In this document: in pieces, positions 36,928 through 64,000 of the stretch
How positions within the stretch are numbered: position 1 is the first letter of the stretch
Layout of the letters: every line of letters starts with the position of its first letter
Source of the DNA: Sedimentibacter sp. MB31-C6
GTDB taxonomy: Bacteria > Bacillota > Clostridia > Tissierellales > Sedimentibacteraceae
DNA: 64,000 bases
NCBI RefSeq assembly: GCF_035934735.1
Contig: NZ_CP142396.1
Span: 2,356,001-2,420,000, forward strand
Direction: 5' to 3'
The notes under the pieces: generated by a model
The model's database searches: none
What the model was told of the DNA's origin: nothing
The model's input: only the letters and a program-made list of their open reading frames with translations
Program-made: the position numbers and the translations under genes

Positions 36928-36946
36928 TATTTTAATTGAATAACAA

Positions 36947-37051
36947 TCTTCAGGGCAGGGTGTGATTCCCTACCGGTGGTAAAGCCCACGAGCCGTAAGG
37001 TTGATTCGGTGAAACTCCGAAGCCGACAGTATAGTCTGGATGAAAGAAGAT
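36947..37051 (+). ncRNA. FMN riboswitch (RFN element)
   Basis: Shows the conserved blocks of the RFN aptamer: CTTCAGGGCAGGGTG, TTCCCTACCGGTGGTA, AGCCCACGAGCC, GATTCGGTGAAACTCCGA, AGCCGACAGT and GGATGAAAGAAGA. It senses FMN and shuts off the rib operon, here apparently by transcription termination, since a terminator hairpin follows at 37093. Confidence 0.97.
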
Positions 37052-37092
37052 AAATCAGTATACGCAATTATATGCGTTTTGTTGCACTATCG

Positions 37093-37190: not shown

Positions 37191-37207
37191 TTTTTATGGA
37201 GGTGTTT

Positions 37208-59440: not shown

Positions 59441-60142
59441 ATGAAATACACAGTAGATAAATCTGTTTTTGAATTAAATCCTGATATGAAATTTGGGATA
59501 TTAATAGGAAATAATATTAAAAATTCAAAAACTACACTAGAGGATGAAGAAAGATTAAGAAAAGCAGAGATTAAAATGAGAGATGAAATAAAGGTGGAGG
59601 AGATAAGGAATTTGCGCAATGTGTCATTATACAGAGAAGTCATGCGAAAATCCGGTATCAATCCAAATAAGTATCCTCCTTCTGTAGAAGCTATGTTTAA
59701 AAGAATAATAAAAGGTGGACAACTGCCTGTTATTAACTCTTTGGTTGATTTGTGTAATGCTATATCAATAGAAAGAGGAATTTCACTTGGAGGACATGAT
59801 TTAATAGATATTAATGAGGATTTGGAAGTTCGCTACAGCAAAAAAAGAGATGTTTTTTTGCCATTCGGCTCAGAAAATTACGAAGAAGTCCAAGAAGGGG
59901 AACTTATATTTACAAGCGGTAATATAGTACAAACATTGAAATGGGTTTGGAGACAAAGCGAATTGGGCAAGGTTACTTTAGACAGCAGCGATGTATTTTT
60001 CCAGCTCGTTGGATTTGGGTATGAGCAATGCTCTTCTTTATATGAAGCAATGAACGATATAGAAGATTTGATAAAAAACAGGTTCCAAGGAAGTTGCAGG
60101 AGATACTTGGTAGATATTAATAATCCGTCTATTGAGTTTTAA
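59441..60142 (+). CDS. B3/B4-domain protein
   Basis: A 233-residue cytosolic protein of the B3/B4 type, a domain shared with the editing region of phenylalanyl-tRNA synthetase beta chain: RNVSLYREVMRKSGINPNKYPPS (in part) and SVEAMFKRII, then LPVINSLVDLCNAISIERGISLGGHDL in pieces. Stand-alone copies may act on mischarged tRNA or free amino acids; not established. AAAGGAGGACAAA precedes ATG 59441; an in-frame start at 59387 is unlikely because it has no ribosome site. Confidence 0.82.
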   Translation: MKYTVDKSVFELNPDMKFGILIGNNIKNSKTTLEDEERLRKAEIKMRDEIKVEEIRNLRNVSLYREVMRKSGINPNKYPPSVEAMFKRIIKGGQLPVINSLVDLCNAISIERGISLGGHDLIDINEDLEVRYSKKRDVFLPFGSENYEEVQEGELIFTSGNIVQTLKWVWRQSELGKVTLDSSDVFFQLVGFGYEQCSSLYEAMNDIEDLIKNRFQGSCRRYLVDINNPSIEF

Positions 60143-60265
60143 GGTCACTTCAGTCCATCCCCGAAAATATACTGAGAAGTTATAGGTGAGTCGGTATGAA
60201 AAAAGATAATGATATTTTTAATTTATTTGAAGACACGGGGAATTATCAAAAATGAGGAGAAAAAA

Positions 60266-60622
60266 ATGAGATATACATTTATTTGTTATTCAAAATGAGG
60301 TACATGCAAAAAAGCTAAGTTATGGCTAAAAGATAATAATATTGAATTTGATGAAAGACCTATAAAGGAAGAAAATCCAACTGAAAATGAATTGAAGGGT
60401 TGGATAAAAAAAAGTAGTTATCCCATAAAGAAGTTTTTTAATACAAGTGGAGTTTTGTATAAAGATTTAAAGCTTAAAGAAAAACTTGGCGAAATGTCAG
60501 AAGAAGAAAAAATTAAGTTGTTATCAACTGATGGCATGCTTGTTAAAAGACCTTTAATTGTAGGTGAAGATGTTATATTGGTTGGATTTAAAGAGAATGA
60601 GTGGAAAGAAAAATTATTATAG
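60266..60622 (+). CDS. ArsC/Spx-fold thioredoxin-like selenoprotein candidate (in-frame TGA as selenocysteine 11)
   Basis: Reading from ATG 60266, six bases after GAGGAG, the frame gives 118 residues if the TGA at 60296-60298 is decoded. Residues 1-10 (MRYTFICYSK) and 12 onward (GTCKKAKLWL...) form one uninterrupted ArsC-like protein: the TGA replaces the usual redox cysteine in YxKCxTCKKA, giving a U-G-T-C redox motif. The FFNTSG and VKRPLIV (cis-proline) family motifs follow. A SECIS-like stem-loop lies 14-29 bases after the TGA. An ordinary caller would start at 60392 and lose the active site. The nitroreductase gene follows 26 bases later. The alternative, a nonsense mutation, is less likely given the exact position. 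Confidence 0.78.
60313..60327 (+). promoter_or_regulatory. bacterial SECIS-like hairpin
   Basis: AGCTA-agtta-TGGCT: five base pairs (one G-U) with a five-base loop having G in the second position. The loop starts 19 bases past the TGA, within the 16-37 base window and loop rules of bacterial SECIS elements. The stem is short. Confidence 0.5.
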
Positions 60623-60648: not shown

Positions 60649-61473
60649 ATGGCTAATGTAATTATTAACAAAGAAACATGTATTGGATGTGGAATGTGCG
60701 TTAAGGATTGCTCGAGAAAAGCAATTGAGTTGGTAAATAAAAAAGCACAAGTTGATTTAGATTTATGTAATGAATGTGGTCATTGTGTGGCGATATGTCC
60801 GCAAGCTTCAATTTCAATGCCGAAGTACGATAAGTATGAAATAATAGAAGTAGATGAGGATAGATTAAATTTAGATCCTGATGATTTTTTATATTTTCAA
60901 AAATGCAGGAGAAGTATACGTCAATTTAAAAATAAGGATATAGAAACTGATAAATTAAATAAAATAATAGAAGCTGGTCGTTATTCTCCTACAGCTAGCA
61001 ATAGGCAATTGAATCGTTATATAGTAGTTAGAGAGAAAATAGATGAAGTTAGGGATTTGGCTATAAGGACTTTATATGATGCAGCAAATGATCCTAATTT
61101 TGACACTAAAGGCGGACCTGATTATAGAAATTCATGGATACAGATGTATAATAATTATAAAGAAAAGAATATTGACAGCCTATTTTTTAACGCTCCTGAA
61201 ATTATAGTTATTGTAAGTGAAGATAAGGCAGGATTTGCTGAAGTTAATGGCGGAATTGCAGCTTCAAGAATGGAATTGCAGGCTAATTCTTTAGGATTAG
61301 GAGTTTGTTATATTGGATTTTTAGGAAGAGCCGTTAAATTCAACAATAAAATCAAAGAATTAATAGGCATGAAAGATAATGAGGAATTTATACTTTCATT
61401 TGTTATTGGCTATCCTAATGTAAAATACAAAAGAAGTGTAAATAGAACGCCATCTGATGTAAGGTTTATTTAA
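60649..61473 (+). CDS. ferredoxin-nitroreductase fusion
   Basis: A 274-residue protein. The N-terminus holds two 4Fe-4S clusters (CIGCGMCVKDC and CNECGHCVAICP, about 11-52); the rest is an FMN nitroreductase domain (RRSIRQFKNKDIE, EAGRYSPTASNRQ, GLGVCYIGFLG). Such fusions take electrons from low-potential carriers and reduce nitro compounds or quinones. AAAGGAG precedes ATG 60649; the longer frame from 60601 overlaps the previous gene. It shares a transcript with the selenoprotein candidate, fitting a redox role for both. Confidence 0.88.
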   Translation: MANVIINKETCIGCGMCVKDCSRKAIELVNKKAQVDLDLCNECGHCVAICPQASISMPKYDKYEIIEVDEDRLNLDPDDFLYFQKCRRSIRQFKNKDIETDKLNKIIEAGRYSPTASNRQLNRYIVVREKIDEVRDLAIRTLYDAANDPNFDTKGGPDYRNSWIQMYNNYKEKNIDSLFFNAPEIIVIVSEDKAGFAEVNGGIAASRMELQANSLGLGVCYIGFLGRAVKFNNKIKELIGMKDNEEFILSFVIGYPNVKYKRSVNRTPSDVRFI

Positions 61474-61489: not shown

Positions 61490-62140
61490 ATGAGCAGTCC
61501 TTGGGAAAGAATTCCTCTAGATGATTATGAGAATCACATGAAATTATCGACGGTACAGCAATTACAGAAATTAAATGAAATTATGAAATCGCAGATAGAT
61601 AAATACAATATTGAAACAGTTGCCATTTTAGGGGTAGCAGGTGGAAATGGGTTAGAGCATATTGATTGTTCAAAGATTAAGGTTGTTTATGGTATTGATA
61701 TAAATCAAGATTATTTAGATGTCTGCAAGGAAAAATATAAGAATTTAGACGATTATCTTGTGCTTAAAAAATTAGATTTAGCAGATATAGCAAATGATCT
61801 ACCAGTGGCAGATATTATAATAGCAAACTTGTTTATTGAATATATTGGCATTGATATGTTTATAAAACAATTGTCAAAAAAAGTTCCACCATTTGTATCT
61901 TGTGTAATTCAAAAAAATCTTGATATTAATTTTGTATCAGATTCACCATATACAGAAGTATTTGAAGAAATTTCATTATTGCATAGAAATATAGATAAAA
62001 ATTCCCTTGTTAATGCTATGAGTACAATAGGTTACAGCTTGATTATTTTTGAGGAACATTTATTACCGAATATGAAAGAATTTATTAGATTGGATTTTAC
62101 CAATAACAAGATTGTGGTGCGGCATAGCAATGTCGTATAA
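61490..62140 (+). CDS. class I SAM-dependent methyltransferase
   Basis: A 216-residue protein with a Rossmann methyltransferase fold: motif I VAILGVAGGNGLEHI (about 45-59), acidic end of strand 2 in VVYGIDINQDYLD, and ADIIIANLFIEYIG as motif IV. The start at ATG 61490 follows AAAGGTGAG; a GTG at 61481 is in frame but lies in that site. Substrate unknown. The group II intron starts about nine bases past its stop codon. Confidence 0.82.
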   Translation: MSSPWERIPLDDYENHMKLSTVQQLQKLNEIMKSQIDKYNIETVAILGVAGGNGLEHIDCSKIKVVYGIDINQDYLDVCKEKYKNLDDYLVLKKLDLADIANDLPVADIIIANLFIEYIGIDMFIKQLSKKVPPFVSCVIQKNLDINFVSDSPYTEVFEEISLLHRNIDKNSLVNAMSTIGYSLIIFEEHLLPNMKEFIRLDFTNNKIVVRHSNVV

Positions 62141-62600
62141 TTTAACAGGTGGAAATCCTGTCTGGTAAGGTTTAAGCTGAACTGCCAGTAGCGAGTCATG
62201 GATATATATTAGTAATAATATGTGTTAAGCGTTGACAGTCAGGCTGTAGGGCTGAAAGTGATTGAGCCTCGAAATTGTTTGTAAATCCAAGTGCTCATGC
62301 TGTCGCAGTAGCAGAAAGCAATATACTGGCATGCGTTAATAAGCAAGTATACCAGTAACTTGGCGGGGTCTTTAAAGCCAGTCATGCAGTACAATGATTA
62401 TACGGTAACTATGGAGACCCTATTACCTCTCGTTAGAGTATGAGACATCAACTATAAAATGAAGATAATCAAATGGGTAATAGGGAGTCGGATAGGTGCA
62501 TATTACCTGAGAATATGAGTAATGTCATTGGAGGAAAGGCACCTACATAATATAACTCTCTGTAAGGAAACATTATCTATACACAGGGATAGGAGAAATA

Positions 62601-63902
62601 ATGGAAACAAAATTACAAAGAATAGCCGAAATGTCAAGAAAAGACGCAAAGATTGAATTTACATCATTATATCATCTACTTAACAAAGAACTGTTGTTTC
62701 AATGTCACAAAGAATTAGACAAAAATAAAGCAGTAGGGATAGACGGTATAAGCAAAAAGATATATGGAGAAAATCTAAATCAAAACTTGATTAAATTAGT
62801 GGAAAGATTAAAGAAAAAATCATATAAACCACAGCCATCTCTAAGAATACAAATTCCTAAAGATAATGGTAAAACAAGACCTTTAGGAATAGCTGTATAT
62901 GAAGATAAAATTGTTCAGCTTGCACTAAAGAAGATTGTTGAAGCAATATATGAACCAAGGTTATTAGACTGTATGTATGGATTTCGTCCGAACAGGAGCT
63001 GTCACGATGCAATAAAAGCTTTAAATATAGCTATAGAGAAAAGGAAAACAAATTGGATATTAGATGCTGATATAAAGGGCTTTTTCGACCATTTAGACCA
63101 TGAATGGGTAATGAAAGTAATAGGAGTGCATATAAAAGACCCTAACATTAATAAGCTTATAAACAAATTTCTTAAAGCGGGAATTGTAGAAAACAATGTG
63201 TACTACGATACGGATGAAGGTGCAGCCCAAGGTTCTAATCTAAGTCCAACAATAGCAAATATATATATGCATTATATGTTGGCATTGTGGTTTGAAAGGG
63301 TAGTTAAACCATTATGTGAAGGAGACTGTTCAATAACAATATATGCCGATGATTTCGTAGCATGTTTTCAGTACAAAAACGAAGCAGAAATGGTTCATAA
63401 ATTAATACAGGAAAGAATGAAACTATTTAAACTGTAGCTTGAGCCAAACAAAACAAGGTTAATTGAGTTTGGCAGTTTTGCTGAAATAAACTGTTATAGA
63501 CGAAATAAAAGTAAACCAGAGACATTTGATTTCTTGGGCTTTACTCATTATTGTAGTAAAAGCCGAGGAGGGCGATTCAGGGTTAAAAGAAAGACCAGTA
63601 AAAAGAAGTTTAAAATAAAAGTAAGTAATTTCAAGAAATGGATTATTGAAAACAGAATCTTACCGCTAAAAGAGATAATTGAGAAAGTTAATTTAAAGTT
63701 AAAAGGACACTATCATTATTATGGAATTACAGATAATACAAAAATGATTAGAAGGTACTACTATGAAGTCGAGAAACTCTTATACAAATGGCTAAATAGA
63801 AGAAGCCAACGTAATAGTTACAATTATGATAAATTTAAAATGATGCTTAGATATTATCCATTAGAACAACCAAAGATTTTTGTAAGTGTCTATGACATAT
63901 GA
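62601..63902 (+). pseudogene. ltrA: group II intron reverse transcriptase/maturase with an in-frame TAG
   Basis: The frame codes for about 433 residues but is split by a TAG at 63435-63437; the reading frame continues cleanly on the other side. The first part has RT blocks including GIDGIS, RIQIPKDNGKTRPLGI, YGFRPNRSCHDA, DADIKGFFD, GAAQGSNLSPT and the catalytic YADDF. The part after the TAG has LEPNKTRLIEFG, FLGFTHY and the maturase domain X (NLKLKGHYHYYG). No HNH endonuclease domain follows. The TAG would remove domain X, so the protein is probably dead unless suppressed. Confidence 0.9.
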
Positions 63903-63919
63903 CGTGAAATATATTATGA

Positions 63920-63954
63920 GGAGCCGTGTGCAGTAACTCTGCAAGCACGGTTCT
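63920..63954 (+). ncRNA. group II intron domain V
   Basis: GAGCCGTGTGCAG-TAAC-TCTGCAAGCACGGTTC pairs as the 34-base catalytic hairpin with the expected AAGC-type bulge and GAGC/GTTC base. Domain VI (CATGCACC-gtga-GGTGCATG) follows at once. Confidence 0.92.
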
Positions 63955-64000
63955 GGGAGGAGCATGCACCGTGAGGTGCATGTTTATTCGACAGGACAGA

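Follow-up and report, generated by a model that had tools for sequence, protein, structure and literature searches.

An in-frame TGA at the redox cysteine of an ArsC/Spx-fold gene in Sedimentibacter sp. MB31-C6: a probable selenoprotein gene

The 64,000-nt window analyzed here, a single stretch of contig NZ_CP142396.1, contains a small gene whose reading frame is interrupted close to its start. Is the interrupting TGA a stop codon, or is it read as selenocysteine (Sec), and what would a Sec-containing product do? The frame starts with an ATG (60266-60268), ends with a TAG (60620-60622), and its sole internal TGA is codon 11. A further 107 codons stand between the TGA and the TAG, and reading through the TGA as Sec gives a product of 118 residues that begins MRYTFICYSKUGTCKKAK. 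The TGA sits at the first Cys position of a CxxC motif, which becomes U-x-x-C. Columns 11 and 14 are invariant, with U shown as C, in an alignment of 28 proteins (A1, 28 of 30 loci with L036 and L040 left out). A first-pass annotation had proposed the gene as a selenoprotein candidate, noting that the frame is broken only by a TGA at the redox Cys, that the long start has a perfect ribosome binding site, and that ORF callers would miss the active site. All three points held. There is a single TGA, and Cys is the residue aligned with it in all 21 of the sense-codon genes compared from the order and in 79 of 80 loci of the genome_contigs collection. The motif GAGGAG precedes the ATG at a distance of 6 nt, and purine-rich stretches resembling it precede the start in many homologues. 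The ORF list made with translation table 11 contains only a 76-residue remnant with its TTG start at 60392. Genes of this kind are cut short by standard ORF calling, which leaves their active site invisible.

Table 1 Features of the locus in window coordinates.
Feature	Position	Strand	Basis
ArsC/Spx-fold gene, probable selenoprotein, 118 codons plus TAG	60266..60622	+	frame, profile matches, predicted fold
TGA codon 11, putatively read as selenocysteine	60296..60298	+	same codon is TGA in 25 genes; TGT or TGC in the Cys genes examined
TGC, Cys14, partner of Sec11 in U-x-x-C	60305..60307	+	translation, alignment
Ribosome binding site GAGGAG, 6 nt 5' of the ATG	60254..60259	+	read in the sequence
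SECIS-like hairpin AGCUA-AGUUA-UGGCU	60313..60327	+	read in the sequence; geometry scan, comparison
Ferredoxin-domain (4Fe-4S) nitroreductase gene, 26 nt downstream	60649..61473	+	ORF list, domain match; not a conserved part
Methyltransferase-like gene, 16 nt further	61490..62140	+	Pfam match weak, below cut-off
B3/4-domain gene, 123 nt before the start	59441..60142	+	ORF list, domain match

The source genome (3.02 Mb, 2 contigs) was searched for the Sec decoding machinery, a check that the first-pass annotation had suggested, and a tRNA-Sec together with selA, selB and selD was present. The tRNA-Sec scores 62 bits (cut-off 47) and has the anticodon UCA as read by ARAGORN. NCBIfam profiles identify SelA (621.3 bits, cut-off 267.9), SelB (402.5 bits, cut-off 242.25), and SelD (403 bits, cut-off 125). 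On one strand and in one gene row, selD, selA, and selB are followed by the tRNA-Sec gene (selC), and the gene between selB and selC is response-regulator-like in our reading. Other genes of the same genome also carry a Sec codon: selD has its own in-frame TGA (AAGUAAK), as have two GrdB-family genes (UGTCTRC). A homologue of the ArsC/Spx-fold gene was found in 46 of 120 genomes of relatives; it is of the Sec type in 14 of them and of the Cys type in 32. SelB scores above cut-off in 13 of the 14 Sec-gene genomes versus 19 of the 32 Cys-gene genomes (p 0.035), and tRNA-Sec in 11 of 14 versus 21 of 32, which is not a significant difference (p 0.50). Three draft genomes with a TGA gene (G006, G015, G093) have no tRNA-Sec above cut-off, and a laxer search was likewise empty; each of these assemblies consists of at least 200 contigs, and G015 has a full SelB, G006 and G093 a partial one. 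A tRNA-Sec is present in all of the other four Sec genomes of the order (G240, G241, G242, G246).

Codon 11 was compared in homologues from within and beyond the order. Within the order, 132 of 249 genomes contain a homologue (E ≤ 1e-20), for a total of 133 genes with the source gene included. Exactly one in-frame stop occurs in 19 of them, always a TGA and always at codon 11, and 114 have none; an in-frame TAA or TAG is absent from all 133. The 21 genes that were fetched from the 114 sense-codon genes, mostly the better-scoring ones, have TGT or TGC at codon 11. A wider set of 391 genomes drawn from the class yielded a homologue in 146 at E ≤ 1e-25. Outside the order, 4 of 136 matched class genomes have one TGA, again at codon 11, and all four have a tRNA-Sec above cut-off. 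The Acetoanaerobium noterae DSL2 homologue has a TGA at codon 11 too, as does one of the 80 genome_contigs loci (L120, from an uncultured Clostridia bacterium), a collection whose ranking favours Cys genes. The TGA members total 25, with 19 in the order, source gene included, and 6 outside it. The occurrence of TGA at exactly codon 11 in 25 genes is therefore not chance. The gene is patchy and dispensable within the genus: 13 of 25 genus genomes searched, some of them incomplete drafts, gave no homologue match. In one homologue with a TGA at codon 11, G470 (L186), Val replaces Cys14 (UTSV), so that the motif offers a selenol but no partner Cys. In the plasmid collection, the records L182 (2.6 Mb) and L183 (2.1 Mb) have the appearance of complete chromosomes filed as plasmids.

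A short hairpin lies downstream of the TGA. Its arms (60313-60317 and 60323-60327) form 5 bp and enclose the 5-nt loop AGUUA (60318-60322), which has G as its second base and begins 19 nt past the TGA, confirming the element described in the first-pass annotation. The geometry of bacterial SECIS (bSECIS) elements given in PMC13188914 has a stem of 4-16 bp, a loop of 3-9 nt with a G within the first two positions, and a spacing of 16-37 nt between the UGA and the loop, with an MFE limit of -7.5 kcal/mol; by the same account a subset of selenoprotein genes fails the consensus model. The search for a bSECIS element gave a divided answer. The geometry fits (stem 5, loop 5, G at position 2, spacing 19) and the hairpin is comparatively conserved, but its energy of -3.7 kcal/mol (60299-60340) misses the limit. 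Folded alone, the source hairpin does not exceed shuffled sequence in stability (z -0.32), and a synonymous-codon test gave p 0.065. The support for this putative SECIS element is comparative.

Stem and loop G are intact in 18 of 19 Sec genes versus 4 of 21 Cys genes (Fisher p 1e-6), and the exception among the Sec genes, G117, has a perfect stem that is shifted. A scan with the published geometry detected a hairpin in 24 of 25 Sec genes versus 6 of 21 Cys genes. The strict scan gave no hairpin in G012a, where it is too weak; this gene is one of the two Sec copies of the genome G012 (L131, L127). Synonymous codons were redrawn from each gene's own pool, with p set to 1 for genes that have no hairpin (1 of 25 Sec, 15 of 21 Cys). 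The hairpins of the Sec set are stronger than expected from the redrawn codons (combined p 1e-7) and those of the Cys set are not (p 0.99), where the hairpin p-values overstate independence because the genes are related. Singly, p < 0.05 was reached in 6 of 25 Sec genes. Codon usage within the loop follows the same pattern. Lys18 is encoded by AAG in 11 of the 11 Sec genes that have Lys there versus 116 of 295 other Lys codons of the 19 Sec genes (p 3.5e-5), and the third base of the Lys18 codon is the loop G. Across phylogenetically independent pairs (n = 5), the hairpin went with Sec in a mean of 3.0 pairs, the opposite way in 0.0, and showed no difference in 1.9 (median p 0.25, with five pairs being too few to reach significance).

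Selection on the part of the gene past the TGA was estimated from nine gene pairs (six Sec-Sec, three Sec-Cys) over codons 12-113. The dN/dS values of 0.072-0.116 indicate that the downstream part is translated and under selection. With column 11 masked, a tree was built from 68 proteins, namely those of 40 genes of the order, of 27 Cys loci out of the 79 in genome_contigs, and of L120. At least 9 changes between Sec and Cys are required on this tree, of which at least 5 are forced by well-supported branches. A second alignment, A2, joins the source gene with 39 of the 80 genome_contigs loci. The nearest relative of the source gene, G007, has TGT at codon 11 and still contains the hairpin, which fits a recent change from Sec to Cys. 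The first-pass annotation had counted a sense codon in close relatives as evidence against Sec. Such codons do occur, as five genomes of the same genus including G007 have a Cys codon, but six others keep the TGA, and we read the Cys codons as probable Sec/Cys exchange rather than sequencing error. The family is a natural experiment in which a single catalytic position is Sec in some close relatives and Cys in others. With at least five switches and with hairpins that mostly accompany the Sec codon, the reasons why bacteria keep or drop selenocysteine become testable in one small protein.

Two other explanations of the TGA were weighed against these data. The gene could be a pseudogene, or the codon a sequencing error, so that the TGA would be a nonsense mutation, real or spurious. 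The TGT of the nearest relative is compatible with this explanation, and decayed copies of the homologue do exist, because G588 (L188), another genome of the class, has a homologue with an in-frame TAA and an unmatched N-terminus that is probably such a copy. However, the TGA recurs at the same codon in 25 genes from many assemblies with neither TAA nor TAG at codon 11, the sequence after it is under purifying selection (dN/dS 0.07-0.12), and the source genome is a 2-contig assembly, all of which make a pseudogene or an error highly improbable. General recoding, with UGA read as tryptophan or by near-cognate suppression, would also keep the frame open, and an open frame with a TGA cannot by itself tell Sec from another residue. 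The residue aligned in the examined homologues is Cys and not Trp, however; UGA is the ordinary stop of the homologue in 6 of the 40 compared genes (G012a, G012b, G015, G010, G051, G245); and the same genome has the Sec machinery along with further Sec genes. General recoding is hardly credible against this background. We infer that Sec is almost certainly inserted at codon 11. The original proposal of a selenoprotein candidate is supported by the machinery, the alignment with Cys homologues, and the comparatively conserved hairpin.

The family of the product was assigned from the sequence read with the TGA as Sec. It matches PF03960 (ArsC) with 56.5 bits (cut-off 24), and the best NCBIfam subfamily is TIGR01617 (arsC_related) with 106.8 bits, above the curated cut-off of 75.05; all 28 proteins of A1 match TIGR01617 at E ≤ 1e-5. 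The Cys form of the product has a calculated mass of 13.9 kDa. The structure model of the product has a pLDDT of 96.6. Its best fold match is 3gkx (TM 0.95), followed by other ArsC-related proteins, with TM values up to 0.85 for Spx and of 0.74-0.85 for ArsC. The closest solved structure, 3gkx, is a putative ArsC family related protein from Bacteroides fragilis that shares 58% identity in the structural alignment and has Cys at the position where the source protein has Sec. Spx of B. subtilis has the same fold and its CxxC pair at the same position.

These assignments bring two functional alternatives with them. A Sec-containing Spx-type regulator would sense selenium or redox state and bind the α-CTD of RNA polymerase, and this idea draws on the fold match to Spx and on the name of TIGR01617, the Spx/MgsR family RNA polymerase-binding regulatory protein. 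In Spx, the α-CTD contact is G52 and the promoter contact is R60, as described in PMC2801614; in the alignment these residues are Pro53 and Ser61 of the source protein, so the Spx residues are not conserved, and Spx-specific models stay far under cut-off (best 58.5 versus 123). Spx R92 aligns with Arg95, which is invariant in A1. The absence of G52 and R60 equivalents makes a role in RNA polymerase binding unlikely despite the NCBI subfamily name, and we hold an Spx-type regulator to be improbable. A true arsenate reductase of the ArsC type would account for the PF03960 match and for the resemblance of the fold to E. coli ArsC (TM 0.74). The model for classical arsenate reductases, TIGR00014, scores 30.5 versus a cut-off of 106.05, however, and none of the five scanned neighbours is an ars gene. 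Classical ArsC employs an Arg triad according to PMC3169414; counted over its whole length, the source protein contains only three Arg (2, 31, and 95), and Arg31 and Arg95 do not vary in A1. Arsenate reduction is accordingly an unlikely role. Glutathione-dependent thiol reduction has been proposed for YffB in the same source (PMC3169414), and by analogy with YffB and with U-x-x-C redoxins the product is probably a glutaredoxin-like thiol/disulfide reductase that uses Sec as the nucleophile.

The gene as a whole very likely encodes an ArsC/Spx-fold selenoprotein with hairpin-guided decoding of UGA to Sec, and a thiol/disulfide reductase is its likeliest role. In the proposed mechanism, the hairpin, with its loop 19 nt downstream, would recruit SelB with Sec-tRNA(Sec), and UGA codon 11 would be decoded as selenocysteine, so that Sec would be the nucleophile of the U-x-x-C pair. 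In the redox chemistry that we infer for the protein, Sec11 would attack a substrate in the manner of a thiol/disulfide or mixed-disulfide reductase. Cys14 would resolve the resulting selenenylsulfide, and cellular thiols or a redoxin/reductase would restore the protein.

The first-pass annotation had pointed to ArsC-like selenoproteins in surveys of selenoproteomes, and such proteins are indeed described there (PMC1794560, PMC2398784, PMC13188914). The survey of Zhang et al. in 2006 describes an ArsC-like selenoprotein family with two members, which appear to be from Desulfotalea and Desulfuromonas and were compared by description (PMC1794560). These proteins are ArsC-like with Sec, and Sec is lost or exchanged among their relatives as it is here (PMC1794560). 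An arsenate reductase selenoprotein with a UxxS motif was reported from the Sargasso Sea (PMC1088965). The GOS survey lists UxxS and UxxC types, the latter being arsenate reductase 2 (cd03032, 42 sequences), which resembles the source protein in its UxxC motif, comes from marine metagenomes, and was compared by description only (PMC2398784). Both motifs are repeated in a 2022 review (PMC9312934). A 2026 catalogue lists TIGR00014 with UxxS and NF041106 with UxxC and cites the GOS paper for NF041106 (PMC13188914). The source protein shares UxxC with NF041106 (ArsC_rel_Se_1) but reaches 20.5 bits, far below the cut-off of 85. The TIGR00014 selenoprotein belongs to the ArsC superfamily and has Sec, as here, but it has UxxS and not UxxC (PMC1088965, PMC13188914), and the source protein stays below the cut-off of that model. 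Table 1 of the 2026 catalogue has no entry for TIGR01617 (PMC13188914). The available main texts of PMC12013277 and PMC5029168 make no mention of ArsC, arsenate reductase, Spx, or Tissierell, and a literature search at the level of titles and abstracts, with subscription papers largely outside its coverage, returned no description of an Spx/TIGR01617-type selenoprotein. ArsC-like selenoproteins as such are already known, and this branch seems, short of proof, not to have been catalogued yet.

The genes next to the selenoprotein gene were compared across loci (Table 1). The first-pass annotation had described an operon with the ferredoxin-nitroreductase, but this arrangement is not a conserved feature. 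The nitroreductase is adjacent in the source genome only among 40 loci, and a conserved operon was rejected on the basis of 0 of 39 other loci with this adjacency, several of which end at contig edges. A gene from the same loose cluster as the nitroreductase lies within 4.5 kb, not adjacent, in 4 of 39 (G010, G104, G245, G248). Relatives of the nitroreductase (66-72% identity) occur in six genomes of the same genus, whose flanks, retrieved over roughly 1.5 kb, contain no full-length ArsC-like gene. G010 has a Cys-type ArsC-like gene that is cut to 39 codons (L176:229-348) and followed by a short nitroreductase-like start. This truncated copy, probably a remnant of rearrangement, lies just upstream of a full ferredoxin-nitroreductase, and the contig also carries an intact Cys gene at a distance of about 4 kb. 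The position of the truncated copy beside a nitroreductase suggests that the two genes may formerly have been linked in other members of the genus. A bolder reading takes the protein as a distinct ArsC/Spx-fold selenoredoxin branch that here works with the adjacent 4Fe-4S nitroreductase as a ferredoxin-fed seleno-glutaredoxin system. If this unlikely proposal were true, electrons would pass from ferredoxin to flavin, to the selenol, and to a substrate in a dedicated pathway of the source species. A scan for promoters and terminators around the genes gave sites no more frequent than in shuffles.

Two RNA elements were recorded elsewhere in the window. A group II intron (62152-63992; RF02005 at 62152-62379, RF00029 at 63919-63992) begins 11 nt past the methyltransferase-like gene, and in our reading its reverse-transcriptase frame is split into two ORFs (62601-63437 and 63534-63902). 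An FMN riboswitch (36942-37055, 118.6 bits) lies upstream of a gene row that starts at 37196.
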